Shown piece by piece: positions 3 to 5,877 of a stretch of 64,000 nt of DNA. A model generated the notes under the pieces. The model had not been told where the DNA came from. It did no database searches and saw only the letters and a program-made list of their open reading frames with translations. The DNA comes from an uncultured Spirochaetaceae bacterium (GTDB taxonomy: Bacteria; Spirochaetota; Spirochaetia; Sphaerochaetales; Sphaerochaetaceae): NCBI GenBank assembly GCA_944389075.1, contig CALXLA010000020.1, forward strand, positions 1 to 64,000. The letters run 5' to 3'. The position numbers and the translations under genes are program-made. Position 1 is the stretch's first letter; each line of letters starts with the position of its first letter.

Positions 3-701
3 TCCCTCATGCTCAGGATTATCCTCGGCAGGAATGACCTTGATGTCACTGAGGCAAGGACGCAGAGATGGATACAGAACATAGAGAACCACTCCGTCAA
101 GCTGGACATAGCCGCAAAGGACAGCAAAGGGAAGCTGTACAACATAGAGATGCAGAAGGCATCTGGAAAGTCCCTGAGGAAGAGGGCAAGATACTACAGC
201 GCCATGATTGATGCCAGGTCACTGAGGAAGTCACATGGCTATGACAGGCTTCCTGAGTCTTACGTCATATTCATAACGCGGAAGGATATATTCAGGAAGG
301 GACAGGCCATATACAAGATAGAGCGGCGTATTGAGGGCTCATGGGAGGAATATGGCAATGGCACGCATATAATCCATGTATGCGCAGCGAATGCTGATGA
401 GGATACGGCCCTTGGGCATCTTGTGCATGACCTTTTATGTACAGATCCGGAAGACATACATTACAATGAGCTCAGGGCTAAGGTGAGCTATTACAAGAAC
501 GAAAAGGAGGGGATTATAGAGATGACAACTGAATTCAATAAGATGCTTAAAGAATCGAACGACGAAGTCCGCAGGGAAACAGAGCTGAAGATTGCCCGAA
601 GCATGATTGCAGATAACGTTATGTCGCTAGAGAATATTGCTAAGTACTCTGGCCTTTCACTTAATGAGGTTAAAGCCATTAAGAACAGCATCAATGTATA
701 A
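3..701 (+). CDS. PD-(D/E)XK nuclease family transposase (Rpn-like), 5' end outside window
   Basis: The frame is open to the window edge, so the N-terminus is missing. The protein reads like the PD-(D/E)XK family transposase/Rpn group: LDIAAKDSKGKLYNIEMQ carries the catalytic Asp and the ExQ that replaces ExK, followed by KRARYYSAMID, YVIFITRKDIF and LGHLVHDLLCTDPEDIHY blocks typical of the family. Such proteins are nucleases linked to recombination-promoting activity and are often multicopy in gut bacteria. The charged C-terminus ends in a small helical segment (ENIAKYSGLSLNEVKAI) that resembles a HTH. No flanking inverted repeats can be seen because the left side is cut. The family call is confident; mobility is inferred. 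Confidence 0.85.
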   Translation, partial: SLMLRIILGRNDLDVTEARTQRWIQNIENHSVKLDIAAKDSKGKLYNIEMQKASGKSLRKRARYYSAMIDARSLRKSHGYDRLPESYVIFITRKDIFRKGQAIYKIERRIEGSWEEYGNGTHIIHVCAANADEDTALGHLVHDLLCTDPEDIHYNELRAKVSYYKNEKEGIIEMTTEFNKMLKESNDEVRRETELKIARSMIADNVMSLENIAKYSGLSLNEVKAIKNSINV

Positions 702-769: not shown

Positions 770-1033
770 TTACTCGACAACTGCAAGAATGTCAGAGTAG
801 GAGAGAATCAGATAATCCTCGCCATTGTCCTTGATCTGTGTTCCGGCATATTTGTCGTGGATGATCTCCTGACCTGCCTTGACTTTGATTGTCTCATCAT
901 CTCCAACTGCGACTACTGTCGCAATCTGTGTCTTTTCCTGTGCTGTCTGAGGAATGAAGATGCCGGAAGCTGTCTTCTCTTCAGTAGCCTTAGCCTTTAC
1001 AAGAACTCTGTCACCAAGTGGAAGAATTTTCAT
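770..1033 (-). CDS. groES: Co-chaperonin GroES
   Basis: An 87-residue 10-kDa chaperonin that caps GroEL during ATP-driven folding in the cytoplasm. It starts MKILPLGDRVLVK and contains the mobile-loop region (ATEEKTASGIFIP) and the conserved DDETIKVKAGQEII stretch. A longer ORF exists upstream, but this ATG is preceded by GAGGTGATAAT, a good ribosome binding site, and matches the family's usual start. It is an orphan here: no groEL follows, and a terminator sits just behind the stop. No CIRCE element (TTAGCACTC inverted repeat) is visible upstream; a different small inverted repeat is. Confidence 0.95.
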   Translation of the reverse strand: MKILPLGDRVLVKAKATEEKTASGIFIPQTAQEKTQIATVVAVGDDETIKVKAGQEIIHDKYAGTQIKDNGEDYLILSYSDILAVVE

Positions 1034-1682: not shown

Positions 1683-1699
1683 TTGGCACACTTTCTGCA
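1683..1699 (+). promoter_or_regulatory. Sigma54-type (-24/-12) promoter
   Basis: TTGGCAC at 1683-1689 and CTGCA at 1695-1699 place GG and GC exactly ten bases apart, as sigma54 requires (consensus TGGCACG-N4-TTGC; two mismatches here, the G after CAC and the first T of TTGC). Transcription would begin near 1710, leaving a short leader with the CTGGAGG ribosome binding site before the ATG at 1727. No equally good sigma70 promoter is seen in the AT-rich stretch before it. Confidence 0.65.
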
Positions 1700-1726
1700 T
1701 GTCTATTTGTGTACTGGAGGTACGCA

Positions 1727-2608
1727 ATGGACACAGCAAATATCAGAAAGAATGATTACCTTGACAGCGATAGCGATAACGAGGTCCTCTCTATATATCT
1801 TAAGGAAATAAACAGAATACCGCTTCTGACACATGATGAGGAGACAGAGCTTGCTATCAAGGCCAAAGCCGGCGATAAGGCTGCACGTGAGCGCCTTATA
1901 AGCAGCAATCTCAGATTCGTTGTATCTGTTGCCAAGAAGTTCCGTGGGCAGGGACTGCCGCTTCTTGACCTCATCAATGAAGGCAATATCGGCCTCATAA
2001 CGGCAATAGACAAGTTCGAGCCGGACAAGGGCTATCATTTCATATCATATGCAGTATGGTGGATCCGTCAGTCGATTCTCAAGGCCATCCCGGAGAAATC
2101 AAGGGCTGTAAGGCTTCCTCTCAACAGATCCAATGAGCTTATGCAGATCCTCAAGGCAAAGAAAGCTCTCATGCATACGATGGAGACTGCTGAGCCAACT
2201 GTCGAGGATATTGCGAATGAGACGGGCCTTGATGCGAAGCTCATCTCTGATCTTCTTGCCGTAAGCAGCGAGATGATGTCATTCGACAGTCCCGTGAAGA
2301 AGGGTGAGGACGGCTCTTCGACATATGGGGATTTCCTTGAAGATGAGTCTGCAGGTCCTGAGACTCAGATGATGGACAAGGCTCTGAAAGAAGAGGTCAG
2401 TTCCCTTCTTGACATCCTCACGGACAAGGAGAGGGATATTATAATAAAGCGCAATGGCCTTGATGGAAATGAGGCTATGAGCCTGAAGGAGATTGGCGAG
2501 GGCTACTCCCTTACTAAAGAGAGGATACGCCAGATAGAGAAGAGGGCTCTGGAGAAGCTAAGAGCGGAGAGCATCCGCCGTGGAATGGATGCGTTCATGG
2601 CATCATGA
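1727..2608 (+). CDS. RNA polymerase sigma factor, sigma70 family group 2 (RpoS/RpoD-like)
   Basis: A 293-residue sigma70-family factor with regions 1.2 (SIYLKEINRIPLLTHDEE), 2 (LRFVVSVAKKFRGQGLPLLDLINEG, then FISYAVWWIRQSI), 3 and 4 (LKEIGEGYSLTKERIRQIE, a full HTH). It lacks the acidic N-terminal region 1.1 and the large insertion seen in this window's own RpoD (46189-48609), so it is an alternative factor. In size and layout it resembles RpoS-type factors. The ATG at 1727 is chosen because CTGGAGG is correctly spaced; an upstream GTG is not. A sigma54-type promoter precedes it and a strong terminator follows, so it is a single-gene unit. The regulon cannot be read from the sequence. Confidence 0.9.
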   Translation: MDTANIRKNDYLDSDSDNEVLSIYLKEINRIPLLTHDEETELAIKAKAGDKAARERLISSNLRFVVSVAKKFRGQGLPLLDLINEGNIGLITAIDKFEPDKGYHFISYAVWWIRQSILKAIPEKSRAVRLPLNRSNELMQILKAKKALMHTMETAEPTVEDIANETGLDAKLISDLLAVSSEMMSFDSPVKKGEDGSSTYGDFLEDESAGPETQMMDKALKEEVSSLLDILTDKERDIIIKRNGLDGNEAMSLKEIGEGYSLTKERIRQIEKRALEKLRAESIRRGMDAFMAS

Positions 2609-3180: not shown

Positions 3181-5877
3181 ATGGAGAAAAAGAAAAAGTA
3201 TGTATACTTCTTCGGCAATGGAAAGGCCGAAGGAACAGCAGAGATGAAATCACTGCTTGGCGGAAAAGGTGCCAATCTTGCAGACATGACAAGCATTGGG
3301 CTTCCGGTGCCGCCCGGATTCACTATCACAACAGAAGCATGTGCATACTGGGATCAGCATAATGCATATCCAGAGGGCATGAAGGATGAGGTCCTTGCTA
3401 ACCTGAGAAAGCTTGAGAAGCTTATGGGAGCCAAGCTTGGAGATAAGGAGAATCCTCTTCTCGTATCTGTAAGATCTGGTGCAGCCCAGTCGATGCCTGG
3501 CATGATGGACACTGTTCTCAATCTCGGACTCAATCCTGATTCACTTGATGCTCTTATAAGAAAGACGGGCAACGATCGCTTCGCATGGGACAGCTACAGA
3601 CGCTTCATACAGATGTTTGGCGATGTCGTAATGGGCGTTCCGCATGAGAAGTTCGAATATGCCCTTCAGGCTGTGAAGGATGAGAACGGAAAGCACTTCG
3701 ATACGGAGCTCGATGTGGATAATCTCAAGGATGTCATCCGCCGCTATCTGATTATATATAAGAAAGCTACTGGCGAGGATTTCCCGACAGATCCTGAATA
3801 TCAGCTTTTCAAGACGATAGATGCGGTATTCAGATCATGGAACAATGACAGGGCAATCAAGTACCGCCTGATGAATGATATCCGCGGTCTTCTTGGGACA
3901 GCTGTGAATGTTCAGTGCATGGTATTCGGCAATATGGGAGAGACATCTGGAACAGGTGTTGCGTTCACTCGTGATCCATCTTCAGGTGAGAACAGGTTCT
4001 ATGGCGAATATCTGATGAATGCTCAGGGTGAGGATGTCGTTGCAGGTATAAGGACTCCTCAGAAGATGGAGACTATGCAGGCTGTCAATCCTGAGGCCTA
4101 TGAAGAGCTCCTGAAAATCCGCAAGATCCTTGAGAATCATTACCATGACATGCAGGATATTGAGTTCACTATCCAGGAAGGAAAGCTCTACATGCTTCAG
4201 ACAAGAAGCGGGAAGAGGACTATCTTCGCATGGCTCAGGAGCCAGGTCGAGATGGTTGAGGAAGGCCTTATCGATAAGAAGACAGCAGTGTCGCGTGTAC
4301 CTGCCTCAGAATTCAACAAGCTTTTTGCGCCTGTTCTCGATACTGCATTCATCCGCGACAATTCCCTTAAGGAAGTGACTCATGGACTCAACGCTTCTCC
4401 TGGTGGTGCATGCGGCGAGATCTATTTCACAGCCAAGGATGCCGAGGAAGCTGCGAAGATGGGCAAGGATGTCCTTCTCGTCAGGACGGAGACATCTCCT
4501 GAGGATATCGGAGGAATGGCTGTATCAAAGGGTATCGTGACATGCCGTGGTGGCATGACAAGTCATGCCGCTGTTGTTGCAAGAGGCATGGGATGTCCTT
4601 GCGTATCAGGCTGTGGCGAGATCCATGTCGATGAGATAAAGAAGACACTTGAGGTCGGTGGCAAGATCCTCTCAGAAGGCGATTACATGGCAATCGATGG
4701 ATTCACAGGTGCTGTTTATGCACAGAAGATACCTGTTCGCAATTCTGAGATCATGCAGGTTCTCGAAGGCACTATGAACGAGAACGAGTCAGTGCTTTAT
4801 CAGAACTACAAGAAGTTCATGGACTATGTTAACGAGCTTAAGACTATGTCTGTACGCACTAATGCAGATACACCTGCTGATGCTCATCATGCTGTTCAGC
4901 TTGGTGCTGAAGGCGTAGGACTCTGCAGGACAGAGCATATGTTCTTCGGTGGTTCAAGGATCATTTCCATGAGGAAGATGATTCTCGCCGATACATATGG
5001 AGAGAGGCAGATCGCGCTCTCCGAGCTTCTTCCTATGCAGAGAGAGGATTTCATCGGAATCTTCCGTGAGCTCAAGGGACTTCCTGTCACGATCCGTCTT
5101 CTTGACCCACCGCTCCATGAGTTCCTTCCGAATGACCACACATCACGCCATGAGATGGCTCTCCAGCTTGGAACGACTGTTGAGGCAATCTCCAAGAAGA
5201 TCAACTCTCTCCAGGAGTTCAACCCGATGCTCGGTTTCCGTGGATGTCGTCTTGCTATTGTCTATCCGGAGATTCTCCAGATGCAGGTTAGGGCAATCAT
5301 CGAGGCTGCAATCACAGTGAAGAGACAGGGACTCGATGTACATCCAGAGATCATGATTCCTCTTGTAGGTATCTATAAGGAATTCCAGTTCTGCAAGGAG
5401 AAGGCGGAGAAGGTCATCCAGCAGGTCTTCGATGAGCAGAGCCTCAAGGTTGAGTACAAGCTTGGTACGATGGTTGAGGTTCCAAGGGCTGCTATCACAG
5501 CAGATGAGATTGCAAAGGATGCTGAGTTCTTCTCATTCGGTACTAATGACCTCACTCAGATGACTTGCGGCTTCTCCCGTGATGATGCGGCATCATTCCT
5601 TACTCACTATGTGAATGATCCGGACAAGCAGTTCTACGCATATGATCCGTTCCAGACAATCGATTTCGATGGCGTCGGGAAGCTCATAAAGATGGCTGTG
5701 GAACTTGGTCGCGGCGTAAGGCCTGGAATGAAGATGGGTATCTGCGGTGAGCATGGCGGTGATCCAAAGTCAATCGCATTCTGCCAGAAAGTAGGACTTG
5801 ACTATGTATCCTGCTCTCCATACAGAGTGCCTATTGCACGCCTCGCAGCAGCACAGGCAGCTATTGCAAATAACTGA
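3181..5877 (+). CDS. ppdK: Pyruvate, phosphate dikinase
   Basis: An 898-residue PPDK that interconverts pyruvate + ATP + Pi with PEP + AMP + PPi, used in PPi-dependent glycolysis and gluconeogenesis of many anaerobes. The N-terminal ATP-grasp part contains KSLLGGKGANLADM and VSVRSGAAQSMPGMMDTVLN. The swivelling phosphohistidine domain has GGMTSHAAVVARGMG with the catalytic His at residue 462. The C-terminal PEP/pyruvate barrel has SFGTNDLTQM and GICGEHGGDP with the catalytic Cys at residue 855. Length is normal. The ATG follows AAGAGG. It is a single-gene unit with its own promoter and a terminator. A regulatory protein (PDRP) gene is not next to it. Confidence 0.98.
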   Translation: MEKKKKYVYFFGNGKAEGTAEMKSLLGGKGANLADMTSIGLPVPPGFTITTEACAYWDQHNAYPEGMKDEVLANLRKLEKLMGAKLGDKENPLLVSVRSGAAQSMPGMMDTVLNLGLNPDSLDALIRKTGNDRFAWDSYRRFIQMFGDVVMGVPHEKFEYALQAVKDENGKHFDTELDVDNLKDVIRRYLIIYKKATGEDFPTDPEYQLFKTIDAVFRSWNNDRAIKYRLMNDIRGLLGTAVNVQCMVFGNMGETSGTGVAFTRDPSSGENRFYGEYLMNAQGEDVVAGIRTPQKMETMQAVNPEAYEELLKIRKILENHYHDMQDIEFTIQEGKLYMLQTRSGKRTIFAWLRSQVEMVEEGLIDKKTAVSRVPASEFNKLFAPVLDTAFIRDNSLKEVTHGLNASPGGACGEIYFTAKDAEEAAKMGKDVLLVRTETSPEDIGGMAVSKGIVTCRGGMTSHAAVVARGMGCPCVSGCGEIHVDEIKKTLEVGGKILSEGDYMAIDGFTGAVYAQKIPVRNSEIMQVLEGTMNENESVLYQNYKKFMDYVNELKTMSVRTNADTPADAHHAVQLGAEGVGLCRTEHMFFGGSRIISMRKMILADTYGERQIALSELLPMQREDFIGIFRELKGLPVTIRLLDPPLHEFLPNDHTSRHEMALQLGTTVEAISKKINSLQEFNPMLGFRGCRLAIVYPEILQMQVRAIIEAAITVKRQGLDVHPEIMIPLVGIYKEFQFCKEKAEKVIQQVFDEQSLKVEYKLGTMVEVPRAAITADEIAKDAEFFSFGTNDLTQMTCGFSRDDAASFLTHYVNDPDKQFYAYDPFQTIDFDGVGKLIKMAVELGRGVRPGMKMGICGEHGGDPKSIAFCQKVGLDYVSCSPYRVPIARLAAAQAAIANN

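Follow-up and report, generated by a model that had tools for sequence, protein, structure and literature searches.

The cascade of Hk2, Rrp2, RpoN and RpoS in Borrelia burgdorferi is the closest described system to the locus considered here. The likeness is that a sigma54 box lies immediately upstream of a group-2 sigma gene and that an NtrC-type activator (EBP) is encoded close to this gene, following holB and together with a kinase. Borrelia Rrp2 is known to activate rpoS independently of an enhancer (PMC1976401). A second related system is Hpk2-Rrp2 of Treponema denticola, which consists of an oxygen-sensing kinase and a predicted, unstudied sigma54 activator (PMC12070737); no target or binding site of this Rrp2 was found in the open literature. 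AtcR was ruled out as the Treponema counterpart, because it has a LytTR domain while Hpk2-Rrp2 is the predicted sigma54 system (PMC12070737). More generally, EBPs of the NtrC, AtoC and ZraR type share with the candidate activator described below a receiver, an AAA+ domain with GAFTGA and a Fis HTH, as well as sigma54 promoters with upstream palindromes, whereas the target differs here, being another sigma factor together with hsp20 genes. For a sigma54-driven RpoS-like factor in any spirochaete other than Borrelia, no report was found in the open literature, subscription papers being outside the scope of the search.

The window, a stretch of 64,000 nucleotides from an uncultured Spirochaetaceae bacterium, encodes a sigma70-family factor of 293 aa at 1727–2608 on the forward strand. 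This protein comprises regions 1.2, 2, 3 and 4 without region 1.1 and is non-primary, a separate RpoD being encoded near 47.9 kb of the window, which bears out the group-2 sigma factor that the original prediction had placed behind a sigma54 promoter. Its best NCBIfam match is TIGR02394 (rpoS_proteo) with 282.4 bits, below the cut-off of 378.7, and it scores 268.6 bits against PRK05657, below the cut-off of 394; it is therefore described as an RpoS-like group-2 factor and not as proteobacterial RpoS, from which it also differs in lineage and mode of control. Searching 48 congeners with the sigma factor returned only the factor itself and RpoD, with no further relative such as RpoH at that threshold. 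The gene is flanked by a divergent groES (770–1033, reverse strand), kept beside it in most families, by a small forward-strand ORF of unknown family (1178–1549) that recurs there in relatives, and downstream by a conserved pyruvate phosphate dikinase-like gene (3181–5877, forward strand), which serves as a synteny marker and is not claimed as a member of the circuit.

The sigma locus of the window is rearranged in comparison with that of relative G022, and similar ORFs starting with MLRIILGR, perhaps of a transposase or nuclease-type family, lie close to both the sigma locus (window 9–701) and the hsp20 locus on contig C29 (L129:11253-12097). One bin, G015, contains two sigma copies (L006, L069), of which one is 100% identical to that of the window; two species were probably binned together, while a duplication is also possible. 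An apparent absence of the sigma gene from G004 was rejected, as the contig ends there with the box and array pointing off it.

The sigma54 -24/-12 promoter TTGGCACACTTTCTGCA is observed at 1683–1699 on the forward strand as an exact match that is kept across the class. Its TTGGCAC occupies 1683–1689 and its TGCA ends at 1699, with GG (1685–1686) and GC (1697–1698) ten bases apart, so that the YTGGCAC-N6-TGCW context is satisfied at 11/11 positions with GG-N10-GC. The box lies 28–44 bp 5' of the ATG at 1727, and a ribosome-binding site, GGAGG, can be read in the sequence at 1716–1720 on the same strand. The predicted coordinates, spacing and distance to the ATG all proved exact on re-checking. 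Transcription of the sigma gene would be expected to start downstream of the box at about 1709–1711, although neither transcript nor TSS data exist. In the 2.23 Mb genome of the window, the pattern TTGGCAC-N6-TGCW occurs five times at 11/11, and sites with at most one mismatch number 65, compared with 16 when the pattern is reversed as a control. Two further perfect sites, on contigs C43 and C51, are without a palindrome and have no clear target gene nearby.

Upstream of the box, three copies of the unit GNGTCA-N3-TGACNC are observed. The first, GTGCCTATTTGACAC (1510–1524), has two mismatches to GNGTCANNNTGACNC and lies within the 3' end of the small upstream ORF; the second, GTATCAAAATGACAC (1550–1564), follows exactly 40 bp past the first, and the third, GTGTCATTATGACGC (1590–1604), exactly 40 bp past the second. 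In G015 and G022, copy 1 occupies the same place, at -173 relative to the -24 box. The original prediction had instead described an inverted repeat, AATGACAC (1557–1564) and GTGTCATT (1590–1597) with 25 bases between them; the sequences are real, but the unit was misparsed, its first element being the right half of copy 2 and its second the left half of copy 3, and the 40-bp period accounts for the N25 spacing. The N25 repeat was rejected as operator in view of the predominance of GTGTCA-N3-TGACAC pairs, of which 92 occur at spacing 3 and at most one at any other spacing.

Such palindromes are present at 90 of 93 Sphaerochaetaceae promoters, while about 90% of shuffles have none, and by word counts TGACAC/GTGTCA occurs 5' of the box in 69/93 promoters against 9 expected. 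They form arrays of two or three, in which the start-to-start distance is exactly 40 bp in 145 of about 165 neighbouring pairs. A scan of 38 genomes for palindrome pairs 40 bp apart recovered almost only the sigma promoter, and the counts in the controls were close to zero. The palindromes show no more than modest helical phasing relative to the box (R ~0.4). In one genome, G002, a missing enhancer was not accepted, only 157 bp of upstream sequence being on the contig. To our knowledge, the half-site and the 40-bp period match no known enhancer.

Three proteins with a sigma54-activator domain are encoded in the genome of the window. The one on contig C18 is an NtrC-type response regulator with a receiver, an AAA+ domain with Walker A and GAFTGA and a Fis-type HTH, and its gene is preceded by those of a soluble kinase and holB; the kinases of two relatives give a weak PAS-like match, and the window's own kinase gives none. 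The gene order in most relatives is cvpA-holB-HK-EBP-dinG-(groES)-ORF-sigma-ppdK, and in about 19 of the 31 genomes tested, as well as in many other families, 3–7 kb separate the EBP gene from the sigma gene. In the assembly of the window the EBP is on another contig and not beside the sigma gene, unlike in G022, a 94%-identical relative. The activator that the original prediction had only supposed can thus be named, with the upstream palindromes as its candidate sites, and as far as sequence can tell the C18-type EBP is likely to act at the palindromes of the sigma promoter, a binding that is inferred without binding data.

It could be objected that another regulator, either the second NtrC-type protein on contig C57 or a repressor, binds the palindromes, and that the neighbouring EBP is not in control. 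The genome does contain the three activator-domain proteins, the C57 regulator is intact (GAFTGA, HTH), and no binding data decide the matter. Synteny with the sigma gene, however, is found only for the C18-type EBP, and the palindromes vanish or change together with the C18-type helix while C57-type paralogues persist (L228 in G138, L229 in G136). In G136 there is no kinase, and the EBP has lost its receiver and breaks off inside the recognition helix; the palindromes are gone, and the -24/-12 box remains. In G064 the recognition helix is altered (RKTLAKKL) and the upstream repeat is of a different sequence, with the 40-bp spacing unchanged. These two genomes serve as natural tests that support the EBP as the putative palindrome-binding protein, if only indirectly. 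Within the genus, ITRR helices pair with GGGTCA half-sites and LHRK helices with GTGTCA, a covariation that is merely suggestive because few independent events underlie it. Control by a different regulator is accordingly regarded as improbable. The remaining activator-domain protein, on C49 (L132:4852-5946, 364 aa), was excluded as activator, as it has GAFTGA without a canonical Walker A or an HTH; it also lacks a receiver.

G138 has likewise lost the kinase, and its EBP shows the same truncation as in G136, with the receiver lost and the recognition helix cut. The two genomes represent a sister lineage that provides, after Borrelia, another example of reduction in an Rrp2-like activator. The truncated activators (L310 in G136, L311 in G138) retain the ATPase motif as GAYTGA or GAFTGA.

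Borreliaceae possess a single EBP with 50–53% identity to the C18 type along its entire length (E 1e-144 to 1e-153); the best values among the paralogues of this EBP within Sphaerochaetaceae are 45% identity and 1e-117. The recognition helix of Borrelia Rrp2 reads RKTLHNK in place of RKTLHRK. In the EBP tree, a branch (99/92) separates the paralogues from Borrelia, a 1.1-Mb Treponemataceae genome and the others, and the window-type EBP is, judging from these comparisons, an apparent orthologue of Borrelia Rrp2. Borreliaceae also keep the holB-HK-EBP order as holB-hk2-rrp2, with rpoS about 7 kb away and carrying its own -24/-12 box. The sigma tree groups Borrelia RpoS with the spirochaete factors against those of other phyla (94/91); its branch is very long, at 6.2 changes per site, so that this placement is weak by itself, and orthology of the two sigma factors has its further support in gene order. 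The comparison with the Borrelia RpoN-RpoS cascade made in the original prediction therefore appears to reflect homology, which is probable from EBP identity, gene order and both trees. Palindromes were looked for before Borreliaceae rpoS and none were found, which fits the published enhancer-independent activation, itself to be expected if the enhancer was lost. Consequently, the circuit described here, which has two or three palindromes at 40-bp intervals as well as hsp20 co-targets, is a variant of the Borrelia cascade and not the same form.

The likeness might also be convergent, different group-2 sigma factors having been placed separately under sigma54, and the low identity of Borrelia RpoS to the sigma factors studied here (38–40%), with its very long branch, leaves room for this explanation. 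It is opposed by the common holB-HK-EBP order with rpoS within about 7 kb, by a Borrelia EBP that is nearer to the window-type EBP family than to that family's paralogues, and by the sigma54 box before rpoS in both, with a class-wide distribution in between. Convergence thus seems unlikely, and common descent is retained in what follows. The Treponema denticola pair Hpk2-Rrp2 (TDE1970/TDE1969) is probably the same kinase-EBP pair, as inferred from name, gene order and family. The holB-HK-EBP order is retained in the 1.1-Mb Treponemataceae genome, and both the sigma54 box and palindromes occur in other members of that family. The search for a close orthologue of the sigma factor in the 1.1-Mb genome (G209; L360, L373) gave nothing better than a match at RpoD level.

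In addition to the sigma gene, small heat shock genes carry the same module. All three hsp20 genes in the genome of the window are preceded by a sigma54 box, two of them also by palindromes, and the box of the third is perfect. Across the family, box and palindrome occur together at 25 of the 27 hsp20 loci whose upstream region could be used, against 0.4% in shuffles, and the two exceptions are second genes in tandem pairs. Given this shared module, the circuit is most likely a response to redox stress or to stress that damages proteins, and the conserved hsp20 targets point to stress proteostasis rather than to host adaptation.

The box is observed far beyond the genus. With a criterion of at least 9/11 matches and GG-N10-GC within 130 bp upstream, it precedes the sigma orthologue in 123 of 137 loci from about 30 families of the class Spirochaetia, including Treponemataceae and Borreliaceae, against 0.7% in Markov-1 shuffles. 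The spacing is hence kept in distant relatives as well as in the close ones in which the original prediction required it, and the circuit foreseen for a gut spirochaete is supported by sequence but is nearly class-wide and not special to such an organism. The box was found in 26 of 30 congeners of the first set and in nearly all of 63 additional Sphaerochaetaceae loci (20 genera); the nearest sigma homologues outside spirochaetes (Ignavibacteria, Zixibacteria, Latescibacteria, Gemmatimonadetes) have neither box nor palindromes. Moreover, rpoN, on whose presence the prediction depended, is intact in the genome of the window (L133:781-2145; TIGR02395, 335 bits against a cut-off of 277), with AID, CBD and DBD domains and the RpoN box ARRTVSKYR, and was found in 47 of 48 congeners. 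In six congeners (G003, G005, G029, G030, G032, G040), TTGGCAY is kept and the -12 TGCA is replaced by TTTCA or TCTCT, a point that weighs against the reading proposed here; they still have rpoN and palindrome arrays, and their altered -12 element perhaps reflects a shifted RpoN specificity.

The sigma54 promoter might still be real yet secondary, an unseen housekeeping promoter or read-through dominating without a real cascade. This is allowed by the absence of TSS data and by the additional control layers to which Borrelia rpoS is reported to be subject (BosR; PMC3037356, PMC11109971). The position of the box 28–44 bp from the ATG, with the ribosome-binding site in between, speaks against it, as does the retention of the box at about 90% of loci over the whole class, because an idle promoter would not be kept; such a secondary role is therefore considered very unlikely. 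The idea that the match arose by chance in AT-rich intergenic DNA, which nothing favours beyond the view of a single window, is already refuted by conservation and by the shuffle controls for box, palindromes, 40-bp arrays and hsp20.

With the sigma54 promoter taken as the working one, the following mechanism is proposed, in which use of the box as well as the direction and strength of control are inferred without transcript data. The soluble sensor kinase would phosphorylate the NtrC-type EBP, as domains and gene order suggest, and EBP dimers would then occupy the two or three palindromes, about 80–170 bp upstream, and oligomerise there. The EBP ATPase is predicted to remodel sigma54-RNA polymerase at 1683–1699, with transcription starting near 1710. 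The RpoS-like sigma factor may subsequently switch on its own, likewise inferred regulon, while the hsp20 genes, where the sites are seen and the control is inferred, would be driven directly by the same EBP module. The signal can only be inferred, hsp20 suggesting protein damage and Hpk2 suggesting oxygen, and the circuit is probably a proteotoxic- or redox-stress response.

We consider it highly probable that this two-step cascade of EBP, sigma54 and RpoS-like factor is ancestral in the class Spirochaetia, and that Borrelia Hk2-Rrp2-RpoN-RpoS is derived from it with loss of the enhancer. With somewhat less assurance, it is likely that the Lyme Rrp2-RpoN-RpoS switch descends from a class-wide sigma54 proteostasis or redox circuit in which the Rrp2-type activator binds 40-bp GTGTCA-N3-TGACAC arrays at the sigma gene and at hsp20 genes; on this view kinase, activator, promoter and sigma factor were retained in Borrelia, whereas the enhancer and the chaperone genes as targets were lost. 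The Rrp2 activator family thereby gains a predicted DNA target and regulon, and an evolutionary origin that can be tested in harmless cultured spirochaetes is offered for the Lyme RpoN-RpoS cascade. The findings also suggest that spirochaetes may run a chaperone response via sigma54.
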